Shown piece by piece: positions 34,267-37,608 of a DNA stretch of 64,000 nt. The notes under the pieces were generated by a model. That model searched no databases and was not told the DNA's origin. It worked only from the letters and a program-made list of their open reading frames with translations. Location: positions 1 through 64,000 of the forward strand of contig FZLS01000006.1 of the NCBI GenBank assembly GCA_900197625.1, written 5' to 3'. The DNA is from Rhodobacteraceae bacterium Water-Bin34 (lineage in GTDB: Bacteria > Pseudomonadota > Alphaproteobacteria > Rhodobacterales > Rhodobacteraceae). Made by a program: the position numbers and the translations under genes. Positions within the stretch are counted from its first letter, which is position 1; every line of letters begins with the position of its first letter.

Positions 34267-35217
34267 ATGCGTGATTTAACTATTCCAGCAGAGCGCCATC
34301 CAGAGAAAGCAAATAAGCCTGATAATGCGCAACCGAGTAAGCCTTCTTGGATTAGAGTTAAGGCGCCGGTTTCTGAAGGTTATAAAAAAACACGCGATAT
34401 AATGCGTGATAATAAATTAGTAACTGTATGTGAAGAAGCTGGATGTCCAAATGTTGGAGAGTGCTGGTCTCAAGGACATGCAACGATGATGATTATGGGT
34501 GAAGTATGTACTCGAGCTTGTACATTTTGTAACATAGCAACAGGTAAGCCCCCAGAAGATCTAGATATATTTGAACCTGGTCGAGTTGCAGATGCAGTAA
34601 AAAAACTTGGATTAAATCACGTTGTTGTAACTTCTGTAGATCGAGATGATGTTCAAGATGGTGGAGCTGAGCATTTTGCGCAAACTATTCGAGCAATTAG
34701 AAAAAAATCCCCAAACACTACAATAGAAATTCTTACACCAGACTTTATTAGGTGTGATGATAATGTTTTGAAAGTTGTAGTTGATGCAAAACCTGATGTT
34801 TTCAATCATAATTTAGAAACTGTTCCTGGTCTATATCCAGAAGTAAGGCCAGGAGCACGATATTTTCATTCATTAAGGTTATTGCAACGAGTTAAGGAAA
34901 TTGATCCTACCATGTTTACAAAGTCAGGAATTATGGTTGGGTTAGGTGAGAATAAACAATCTGTAGTTCAAATAATGGACGACATGCGAGCTGCCGATAT
35001 TGATTTTCTTACAATTGGTCAATATCTACAACCCACTCCTAAACATCATGCCGTTGATAGATTTGTTACGCCTGATGAATTCAAAGTTTATGAGAAAACT
35101 GCATATAATAAAGGGTTTTTAATGGTTTCTGCATCACCATTAACCCGTTCAAGTTATCATGCTGGTGATGATTTTTCAAGATTGAGAAAAGCTAGATTGG
35201 AAAAGTTTGGTAAATAA
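34267..35217 (+). CDS. lipA: Lipoyl synthase
   Basis: Radical SAM enzyme inserting two sulfurs into octanoyl groups on lipoyl domains. The 316 aa carry both Fe-S cluster motifs: the auxiliary cluster '[12 protein letters not shown]' (CxxxxCxxxxxC) and the radical-SAM '[10 protein letters not shown]' (CxxxCxxC). '[15 protein letters not shown]' and the C-terminal '[14 protein letters not shown]' are further signatures. Follows the katG terminator with its own upstream region. Functionally linked to lpdA 4 kb upstream. Confidence 0.98.
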
Positions 35218-35268: not shown

Positions 35269-36861
35269 TCATCTACGAGGTGTTTTATTTCCCTTGCCTT
35301 TGAATGTTTTTTTTCCAGATTTAACTTTGTTTCGATTATTATCCCTTGGTCCCGATCCTCTTTTTGAATTGGCACCTCCACCTCTTCTTCTTGGCACAGG
35401 TTTTTCAAAACTTGGAATTAAATTCTGTGTAAGGCCATCTATTTCTACAACTGGAATATCCATTTTAATAATCTTTTCGATATCCCATAATTGTTTGTGT
35501 TCATCAGGTGCACAAAATGCAATTGCTTTACCATTAGCACCAGCACGAGCAGTACGACCAATACGATGTACGTAAGATTCTGGAACATTCGGTAAATCAA
35601 AGTTTATAACAATTTCTATACCTGGAATATCTATGCCACGTGCTGCTATGTCAGTGGCAATTAAAACGTAAGTTTTACCCTTTTTAAAATCATCTAATGC
35701 TCTTTGACGTTGGCCTTGTGATTTATTACCATGAATTGCATCTGCAGCAATCTTTTGTGTTCCTAACCATTTAACTAGTTTGTCTGAGCCATGTTTAGTT
35801 CGTGAAAAAACAATAACTCTCTTTTTGGGATTTGCTGTTATTATTCTTTGTAATGCTAAACTTTTATTTTGCTTTGATAGATGCATTAAGCTCTGTTCAA
35901 TTTTATCTACGGTAGAATTTTCAGGCGTAACAGAAACTTGGATAGGATTATCTAAATACATTTCGGTTAGTTTTTTGATTTCTTTCGACATGGTTGCAGA
36001 AAATAACAGCGTCTGCCTATCTTTGCTAACTTTAGATATGATACGCTTAACTGCTGGTAGGAAGCCAATATCAAGCATTTGATCAGCTTCATCTAAAACT
36101 AAAAATTTTGTTTCATCTAATCGTAAACCTTTTTGATCAACTAAATCTTCAAGTCTCCCAGGTGTTGCCACTAAAATATCAACGCCTTTGGACAAATCAC
36201 GCATTTGTTTTCGTATAGGTGCTCCACCAATTGCATGTGTAAAGTTTAATGGTAATTTTTTGCCAAAACTTACAAAGGCTTCATGTATTTGTAGCGCTAA
36301 TTCACGTGTAGGAGAAAGAATAATAGCTCTTGCAGAGCGACCTTTTATAGCTATCGGATTCATTAATAATTGTTGTATTAATGGCAAAGCAAATGCGGCG
36401 GTTTTACCTGTTCCAGTTTGTGCTAATCCAACTAAATCTTTTTTATTTAAAACTGCGGGAATTGCTTGAGATTGAATTGGTGTTGGGACTGTATACCCAA
36501 GAAAGCCTAAAGCTTTGACGATCTCTGGGTCTAGGCCTAATTTTAAAAATGCACTTGCATCAGACTTAGGTTGCTCTACTTGCTTTTTTTTCTTTTCATC
36601 ACGATTTTTTAATTTTGAAGACGCTGAAGTTAATAAAGAGGCTTCATCTTTTTTAAGTATTGTTATGTTTGATGCAGCTTTTTTACCAGTTTTTTCATCT
36701 AGTAATAACTCATAAGTTAGCATATCGCCTTCTTTTACAACTTTTAAGCCTGAAGCTTTAAGTGCTGACATATGAACAAATACATCATCGCCACCTTGAT
36801 CAGGATTTATGAAACCTAATCCTTTTACAGGATTATACCAAATTACTGTGCCTGTTAGCAT
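35269..36861 (-). CDS. Cold-shock domain fused to an RhlE-type DEAD-box RNA helicase
   Basis: A 530-aa fusion. Residues 1-69 are a complete CspA-like cold-shock domain with RNP1-like 'KGLGFI' (13-18) and RNP2-like 'VFVHMSAL' (27-34). A charged Lys/Ser-rich linker follows (70-102). The DEAD-box helicase core contains the Q-motif region ('TPIQSQAIP', 127-135), Walker A 'AQTGTGKT' (147-154), 'PTRELALQ' (184-191), DEAD (257-260), SAT (288-290) and 'HRIGRTARAG'. The tail is basic and Gly/Arg/Lys-rich. All helicase motifs are intact. The frame is continuous with no stop between the two parts. Single-strand RNA capture by the cold-shock domain linked to unwinding is a reasonable inference. A structured leader precedes it. 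Confidence 0.93.
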   Translation of the reverse strand: MLTGTVIWYNPVKGLGFINPDQGGDDVFVHMSALKASGLKVVKEGDMLTYELLLDEKTGKKAASNITILKKDEASLLTSASSKLKNRDEKKKKQVEQPKSDASAFLKLGLDPEIVKALGFLGYTVPTPIQSQAIPAVLNKKDLVGLAQTGTGKTAAFALPLIQQLLMNPIAIKGRSARAIILSPTRELALQIHEAFVSFGKKLPLNFTHAIGGAPIRKQMRDLSKGVDILVATPGRLEDLVDQKGLRLDETKFLVLDEADQMLDIGFLPAVKRIISKVSKDRQTLLFSATMSKEIKKLTEMYLDNPIQVSVTPENSTVDKIEQSLMHLSKQNKSLALQRIITANPKKRVIVFSRTKHGSDKLVKWLGTQKIAADAIHGNKSQGQRQRALDDFKKGKTYVLIATDIAARGIDIPGIEIVINFDLPNVPESYVHRIGRTARAGANGKAIAFCAPDEHKQLWDIEKIIKMDIPVVEIDGLTQNLIPSFEKPVPRRRGGGANSKRGSGPRDNNRNKVKSGKKTFKGKGNKTPRR

Positions 36862-37071
36862 GTTAATTCGCTCTCAAGATTTATGCTTGTAGGCCGCATG
36901 GCACTAATTCAAGCTATTGATGGCTAAAACCTTGGGATTCTATATTACGAATCGCCGTCAAATGCTTATACACCTGGCCAGCCGAAGTTGATCTAATAGG
37001 TGACAGTGAAGATGAAAACAAGCGTGTTTATTAAATGAGTTGTAGTAATTAAATTTAAGTTAATAAGTTTC
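36862..37071 (-). promoter_or_regulatory. Candidate structured 5' leader of the cold-shock/DEAD-box gene
   Basis: This 210-base gap is noticeably less AT-rich than neighbouring gaps. Two hairpins are visible. GCTTG/CAAGC (36885-36889 with 36910-36914) encloses GCC-gcat-GGC (36893-36902), beginning 24 bases before the start codon. GATTC/GAATC (36936-36940 with 36949-36953) has an 8-base loop. Long folded leaders are usual for cold-shock genes, so a temperature-responsive element is plausible but not shown. Confidence 0.4.
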
Positions 37072-37608
37072 CTATTTAAATACAACTTTTCCAATATGAT
37101 CTAAATTTCTATTCCTTTGGGCATAATCAATACCATAGCCAACAACAAATTCATCAGGAATTTCAAAGCCAATCCAATCTGCTTTAATTTCTACTTCTCT
37201 TCTAGCTGGTTTGTCTAGGAGGGCGCATACTTTTAACCTGGCTGGTTTCCTGGACTCTAATAATGTTTTAACATGGTGTAATGTATGCCCAGTATCTACG
37301 ATGTCTTCGATTACTAAAACATCCCGGCCTTCAATTTCACCTCTCAAATCTTTAAGGATCCTTACCTCTCGAGAGCTTTCTGTAGAATTTCCATAAGATG
37401 AGGTTTCAAGGAAATCAACTTCGCACGGCAAATCTAATTCTCTTGCTAAATCCGCAATAAAAACAAATGAGCCTCGTAATAGACCGACAACGATAAGTTT
37501 ATCCGTATTCTTGAAATACAATGAGATATCCTCAGCGAGCTCTTCACATCTTGCAGCAATTGACTTTGCTGAAATCATTGGCTCTACAATATAGTTTGTA
37601 TGGTCCAT
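37072..37608 (-). CDS. hpt: Hypoxanthine phosphoribosyltransferase
   Basis: Purine salvage enzyme converting hypoxanthine or guanine plus PRPP to IMP or GMP. The 178 aa include '[21 protein letters not shown]' (the PPi loop region), the PRPP-binding '[14 protein letters not shown]' (about 95-108), and the C-terminal '[30 protein letters not shown]', all typical of Hpt. Located on the minus strand directly upstream of the helicase gene but separated by that gene's leader, so probably a separate unit. It diverges from the Coq10/RatA-type gene. Confidence 0.96.

Follow-up and report, generated by a model that had tools for sequence, protein, structure and literature searches.

A cold-shock domain fused to an RhlE-type DEAD-box helicase in one genus of the Rhodobacteraceae, with parallels in other Alphaproteobacteria

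The 64,000-nucleotide stretch of DNA analysed here (the window) carries on its minus strand a gene in which a cold-shock domain (CSD), a lysine-rich linker, an RhlE-type DEAD-box helicase core and a basic tail follow each other in one open reading frame (Table 1). The stop-to-stop frame holds 534 residues, only 4 more than the 530-residue product of the ATG, and this start is thus hardly in doubt. Pfam places a CSD, a DEAD domain (165.3 bits) and a Helicase_C domain (116.2 bits) within this single frame, which bears out an earlier note, made from the letters of the DNA, that had described a continuous CSD-helicase fusion joined by a short charged linker. The flanking genes are taken to be lipA and hpt.

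Table 1. Features of the fusion locus in the window, and the two related fusions found outside the genus
Feature	Position	Strand	Basis or remark
lipA	34267..35217	+	neighbour of the fusion gene in 18 of 19 fused genomes
CSD-RhlE fusion gene, 530 aa	35269..36861	-	ORF with ATG start; Pfam; full-length relatives
Basic G/R/K-rich C-terminal tail, residues 476-530	35272..35436	-	sequence; mostly low confidence in the structure model
RhlE-type helicase core, residues 104-475 (DEAD 127-297, Helicase_C 334-441)	35437..36552	-	Pfam, NCBIfam, motifs
Lysine-rich linker, about residues 69-103	36553..36657	-	sequence; predicted mostly disordered, one short helix (71-77)
Cold-shock domain, residues 3-67	36661..36855	-	PF00313, 57.3 bits (gathering cut-off 27); same span in whole-genome search
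Codon 15 (Leu), RNP1 aromatic position	36817..36819	-	F/Y in 75 non-fused CSDs; I/L/M in 17 of 17 distinct genus fusions
Putative 5' leader stem	36868..36939	-	pairs the region round a Shine-Dalgarno-like GAGAG (36871-36875); tentative
hpt, hypoxanthine phosphoribosyltransferase-like	37072..37608	-	usual gene on the other side of the fusion
G216 CSD-helicase fusion, another alphaproteobacterial family	L175:3754-6015	minus	Pfam
G171 C-terminal fusion, a further alphaproteobacterial family	L343:847-2592	plus	582-aa frame with DEAD, Helicase_C, CSD

The Pfam domains, the conserved motifs and the fold identify the window protein as a DEAD-box RNA helicase of superfamily 2. The motifs AQTGTGKT, PTREL, TPGR, DEAD, SAT and HRIGR are invariant across three aligned fused proteins, and each of the 50 Foldseek matches listed for the structure model is a DEAD-box protein or a complex containing one. 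RhlE models take the first three ranks among NCBIfam models (PRK10590.1 with 447.4 bits against a curated cut-off of 743, RhlE2 with 445.2 against 925, and RhlE1 with 421.1 against 750), in keeping with the RhlE-type assignment made earlier, and because every one of these cut-offs is missed the protein is filed as RhlE-type and not as an RhlE equivalog. With RhlE it shares these best model matches, the core motifs and the basic tail, but it adds about 100 N-terminal residues, the CSD and the linker, which are absent from 11 unfused relatives in the genus. Among the 25 models listed out of 52 from NCBIfam, none spans both the CSD and the helicase. The structure model of the fusion protein (mean pLDDT 77.5, pTM 0.50) is confident in the helicase core, leaves the linker disordered (pLDDT under 50 at residues 60-94), renders the CSD as strand-rich at low confidence (block means 42-57, from a shallow alignment) and is silent on docking between the CSD and the helicase.

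This is a real and conserved fusion of two known protein families, with one origin in one genus of marine bacteria and separate counterparts in at least two further alphaproteobacteria. A profile search of whole genomes found it in 19 of the 33 genomes in the GTDB genus to which the window belongs; in 18 of these, one match runs from position 1 to 511 or beyond in a continuous frame. In the nineteenth, G068, a run of N interrupts that match, and the reading of this locus as a split gene was therefore rejected. Eleven of the unfused genomes carry an RhlE-type match that starts at positions 98-103, G069 is fragmentary with one piece starting at 104, and G071 and G088 yielded no match above 350 bits with the fused profile. 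Pfam recovers CSD, DEAD and Helicase_C in all six genus relatives tested, whereas the unfused control G081 has DEAD and Helicase_C and no CSD. Full-length fusion proteins are also encoded by an uncultured Amylibacter (L033, 88% identical to the window's protein) and by Amylibacter marinus NBRC 110140 (L034, 80% identical). Both domains are under purifying selection: dN/dS is 0.00-0.12 for the CSD in seven genome pairs of fused genes, and 0.01-0.10 for the linker and 0.01-0.05 for the helicase in the six pairs each with usable dS (an eighth pair, G061-G092, was dropped, as the start pattern did not fit).

Stand-alone cold-shock genes (csp) adjoin rhlE in some alphaproteobacteria, namely at 9 of 142 unfused loci (6/78 in the named set, 0/36 in the family set and 3/28 in the class set) and also in G318, G215 and G358. 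The figure for the named set is inflated by selection, because the scan behind it, which covered the best 80 of 590 relatives, had one of its search patterns in the CSD. In six of the nine cases the csp lies upstream on the same strand (5/78 named, 1/28 class); a csp downstream of rhlE on the same strand is found in L096, L153, G318, G215 and G358. Such neighbours lend some substance to the idea that an assembly or sequencing error has merged two adjacent genes here, an idea that we rejected and hold to be vanishingly improbable: the same uninterrupted frame crosses the junction in 18 of the 33 genus genomes, including a named isolate and genomes assembled into one to four contigs, and codon-level selection spans the linker. 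The doubt raised in the earlier note, that two separate genes might lie behind a sequencing error, has thus been removed. Conversely, neighbouring csp and rhlE genes could be the raw material from which a fusion arises. No cold-shock ORF was found in the flanking DNA fetched with the genus's 11 unfused rhlE genes. Apparent fusions elsewhere (Bosea; Methylobacterium DS1.3.43, a MAG; L051, L096) were rejected, as the csp genes are separate and lie next to rhlE; in Bosea, the Methylobacterium MAG, G318, G215 and G358 there are two genes where the genus has one polypeptide. Arrangements on the same strand that possibly form a csp-rhlE operon were seen with csp upstream in L035, L036, L047, L052 and L051, and with csp downstream in L096, L344, L345 and L346.

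Within the genus the fusion arose once. The helicase cores of the fused proteins (18 of 18, with G068 left out of the tree) form one clade with support 100/100, and adding four more members of the family and 10 of the 11 genes from unfused genomes of the genus gives a wider group with support 100/99; the unfused G079 helicase falls outside this genus group. One or two genes sometimes lie between the fusion and lipA, and the one fused genome in which lipA is not seen, G087, has a contig edge there. The single helicase clade together with the lipA neighbour indicates a single arrival of the gene at this locus. With no helicase in between, lipA sits next to hpt in G074, an unfused member of the genus, and in G619, which belongs to another genus; in G078 and G079 other genes occupy the space. 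The fusion seems to replace RhlE and not to add to it, since no second RhlE-like match above 350 bits was found in the fused genomes except in G000, the assembly from which the window comes (the two in G068 are parts of one gene). The second match in G000 (C191:3530-4825, 409.5 bits) has an internal TAG and lies in an assembly with 5.1% contamination, possibly on a foreign contig.

Genes taken as species markers give a less simple picture. The mfd tree, of 28 chosen genomes (16 fused, 9 unfused and 3 from outside; G087 is a fragment), splits the 16 fused genomes between two clades, each with good support, and joining the two is marginally disfavoured (p-AU 0.0445). The lipA tree, made without G080, G071 and G088 (no lipA match) and G087 (none in reach), leans weakly the same way in that the fused genomes are not grouped, but their union in one clade is not rejected (p-AU 0.325). 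Both trees speak for transfer of the fused gene between two sub-clades, or for its repeated origin, in place of single descent with losses. We regard this as unlikely on the whole, if deserving of attention, and the part of it that supposes repeated fusion is opposed by the single 100/100 clade of 18 helicase cores and by the lipA neighbour, which is present in both sub-clades; transfer, or losses in the intervening lineages, may nonetheless have taken place. A single fusion, with later losses or with transfer inside the genus, is compatible with the helicase tree and the species-marker trees alike.

Outside the genus the N-terminal form is rare among the matches listed, yet recurrent. Among the matches listed for a family sample of 394 genomes, only two genomes match the fused profile from position 1, both of the window's genus; those listed for a class sample of 385 genomes include G000 and G216 (match 3-478), and those for a phylum sample of 398 genomes G000 and G061. 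A protein search that took a single genome from each of 61 genera in the family showed it in G000 alone. These profile searches listed about the best 150 matches, with three candidates scored per genome in the large samples, and as they look for a CSD in front of the helicase, C-terminal fusions do not show up in them and more may exist. The suggestion that the architecture may be widespread in the lineage was not borne out: among the matches listed, the N-terminal form was seen in those 19 genomes of one genus and, separately, in G216, and a C-terminal form in G171.

In G216 the CSD occupies residues 217-279 of the stop-to-stop frame and is followed in that one frame by DEAD and Helicase_C. 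Its helicase groups with the unfused G319 of its own family, in which one of three genomes has the fusion, and this points to an origin separate from that of the genus fusion. Both proteins have the CSD before the helicase, but G216 has an N-terminal extension and keeps the Tyr of RNP1. The extension comprises about 215 frame residues, in which a winged-helix-like segment can be made out by eye, with no Pfam match. In G171, which surfaced in a search of 289 class genomes using the CSD alone, the same domains are arranged the other way round: the helicase at residues 98-412 precedes a CSD at 516-580 in a single frame, in one genome, and the RNP1 Tyr is again kept. The CSD and RhlE have thus been joined at least three times in the class, at either end, and occur as gene neighbours besides, which by the "Rosetta stone" argument suggests a functional link and a lasting partnership of Csp and RhlE.

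The fused CSD of the genus departs from its free-standing relatives in RNP1. It had been described as a complete CspA-like domain with both RNP motifs; RNP2 (DVFVH) is indeed intact, but in RNP1 the sequence KGLGFI stands in place of KG[FY]GFI, so that its aromatic residue is lost. All 17 distinct fused CSDs of the genus depart from the pattern K-G-[FY]-G-F-[IV], with Ile in 10, Leu in 6 and Met in 1 at the aromatic position. The comparison CSDs, which are those of the fetched loci, are aromatic there in 75 of 75 cases (Tyr or Phe in 59/59 stand-alone CSPs, Phe in 16/16 domains of double-CSD proteins), as are 36 of 36 CSD frames at the loci of the best class matches (Phe or Tyr, three frames counted twice). 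A further difference is the Met that follows the RNP2 histidine in fused CSDs, where 56 of 59 stand-alone CSPs have Ile or Val. Residues W8, K13, F17, F28 and H30 never vary among the 18 fused sequences compared, a set to which G216 belongs, and F28 and H30 match the RNP2-like pattern [VI]-F-[VI]-H in 18 of 18. The domain thus resembles the CspA family in exceeding the Pfam cut-off and in retaining the W, K, F, F and H of the RNA-binding face, and it differs from that family in not being free-standing, in its RNP1 substitution and in the Met after the RNP2 histidine. In the numbering of CspA, W11, F20, F31 and H33 would be retained in the fused CSDs and F18 would be the altered position, which would also be that of F15 in CspB of Bacillus subtilis. 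CspF and CspH depart strongly from the aromatic at the same RNP1 position.

According to PMC5572242, which cites Phadtare 2002, W11, F18, F20, F31, H33 and F34 of CspA/CspE are key for RNA binding, and F18, F31 and H33 are key for RNA melting. PMC8155936 states that nucleic-acid binding by B. subtilis CspB is abolished by F15A. With F18 tied to melting and F15A abolishing binding, a change to Ile, Leu or Met should reduce melting and may reduce binding as well. In an alphaproteobacterial clade of Csps, moreover, Val or Phe appears to be allowed at the RNP1 aromatic position, to judge from a table whose letters run together (PMC6719143). Since some free Csps lack the aromatic, the change may be older than the fusion and is not necessarily a result of joining, and since the G216 and G171 fusions retain Tyr, joining a helicase does not by itself remove it. 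The fixed substitution hints that the CSD of the genus fusion has been specialised, which is a specific and testable proposition.

Cold-shock proteins and DEAD-box helicases have RNA substrates in common. That they pair in trans is already known, and the covalent form in one polypeptide is the variant described here. The helicases CshA and CshB of B. subtilis bind CspB, and AtRH7 of Arabidopsis interacts with AtCSP3 (both as given in PMC4846089); the same kinds of protein serve RNA metabolism in the cold, but as separate polypeptides there and as one here. Cold strongly induces cspA, cspB and rhlE of Caulobacter, and an rhlE mutant grows poorly at low temperature (PMC8552747). Among the titles and abstract openings listed in literature searches, none describes a CSD-DEAD fusion.

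It is plausible that the fusion, as had been proposed from the letters alone, would couple strand capture to unwinding. The reading to which we incline, and which we judge somewhat better than an even bet, is that of a bifunctional RNA-remodelling protein in which the CSD would serve as a tether and the helicase as the motor, with the melting activity of the CSD given up or much reduced. A CSD was joined once, in a genus of the Rhodobacteraceae (Paracoccaceae in the NCBI scheme), to the N-terminus of the RhlE-type helicase of that genus; the lysine-rich linker that joins the two is observed, and its flexibility is predicted. The tethering CSD would bring single strands to the ATP-driven helicase and hold them there, probably during the unfolding of RNA under cold stress or in degradosome work, by analogy with Csps and RhlE in Caulobacter. 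The ATP-independent melting that is a CSD's own would have passed to the helicase. The proposed loss of melting is based on the fixed RNP1 substitution together with the published statement on the equivalent CspA residue, and the division of labour follows from the consideration that an attached ATP-driven helicase would make melting by the CSD dispensable, and the holding of RNA not. Several points tell against this reading. The Ala substitution F15A hits binding itself, so that binding too may suffer, though the residues here are Ile or Leu and not Ala; free Csps can lack the RNP1 aromatic, and the fusions of G216 and G171 keep their Tyr; the CSD is of low confidence in the structure model; and the species markers do not unite the fused genomes. 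How a Csp aids a helicase, whether by delivering RNA, by holding it open or by melting beside it, is hard to separate with free partners. The fusion makes the partnership permanent, and as a natural fusion with a fixed change at a melting-linked residue it renders the question testable within one polypeptide.

Two other accounts assign the CSD a different part. It might be a degenerate remnant, poor at binding RNA and retained as a spacer or because it helps folding, and the change of the RNP1 aromatic in all 17 distinct genus fusions, read with the loss of binding reported for CspB F15A, is what such an account would cite. The surface residues of a remnant should drift, however, and those of the RNA-binding face are the ones that stay invariant in the 18 fused sequences; the CSD dN/dS given above is likewise not that of a decaying domain, and we consider a remnant improbable. 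The CSD might also be mainly autoregulatory or targeting, binding its own leader or particular RNAs with little effect on helicase catalysis, which we think improbable too, a shade more so. It draws on the putative stem over the Shine-Dalgarno-like region of the leader. In six close relatives (G061 and G092, whose start pattern did not fit, and G086 were left out of the leader comparison) 96.0% of the cells of this stem are paired, and in 4 of 21 pairs both partners have changed; only 1-3 of 500 shuffles did as well, though such a control is lenient when the sequences are related. Taken singly, the six sequences fold mostly like their shuffles (z-scores -0.84, -1.86, 0.31, 0.81, -0.81 and -2.43), the leader of G065 favours a different outer stem, and inspection by eye does not reveal this form of the stem in the second fused sub-clade, nor in G063, G068 and G087. 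Rfam gave two matches to the leader (E 2.5 and 4), both at chance level and below the gathering score. The coding region offers a second argument for autoregulation, in that the CSD codons of 10 of 10 pairs show less divergence at four-fold degenerate sites than those of the helicase, with at most 1% of equal-sized helicase windows as low in 8 of the 10 (the exceptions being G065-G084 at 0.375 and G083-G085 at 0.056). This would fit a constraint at the level of RNA, but low four-fold divergence near a start may be plain codon bias.

The tether-and-motor reading can be carried further, tentatively and with rather more doubt than belief. The CSD would then be a pure single-strand tether devoid of the F18-type melting residue and would make the helicase more processive or more retentive in the cold; the leader and the CSD coding region would together form a structured and possibly self-regulated start; and alphaproteobacteria would repeatedly hard-wire a Csp-RhlE machine that is otherwise formed from neighbouring genes.

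A tree of 93 CSDs over 72 columns does not single out a donor of the fused CSD; two very long rows, L276 and L277, fell in the fused group of this tree. Within the same set, the stand-alone CSDs that score highest against the window's CSD come from csps that lie next to rhlE, at 75-77 bits, while the genus's own top csp reaches 70.5. A class-wide search turned up equally good csps of up to 78.6 bits (G144), and an rhlE-adjacent csp as the donor is therefore a weak hint. The complement of CSDs varies within the genus: in G000, G065 and G084 just two each were found, the fused one and one stand-alone, and in other members up to nine. In these three genomes no double-CSD protein was found (G084 is 84% complete). 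In the unfused G062, G064, G066, G073 and G081, a weak and divergent CSD match lies in a frame of 81-111 residues about 12-13 kb from rhlE.
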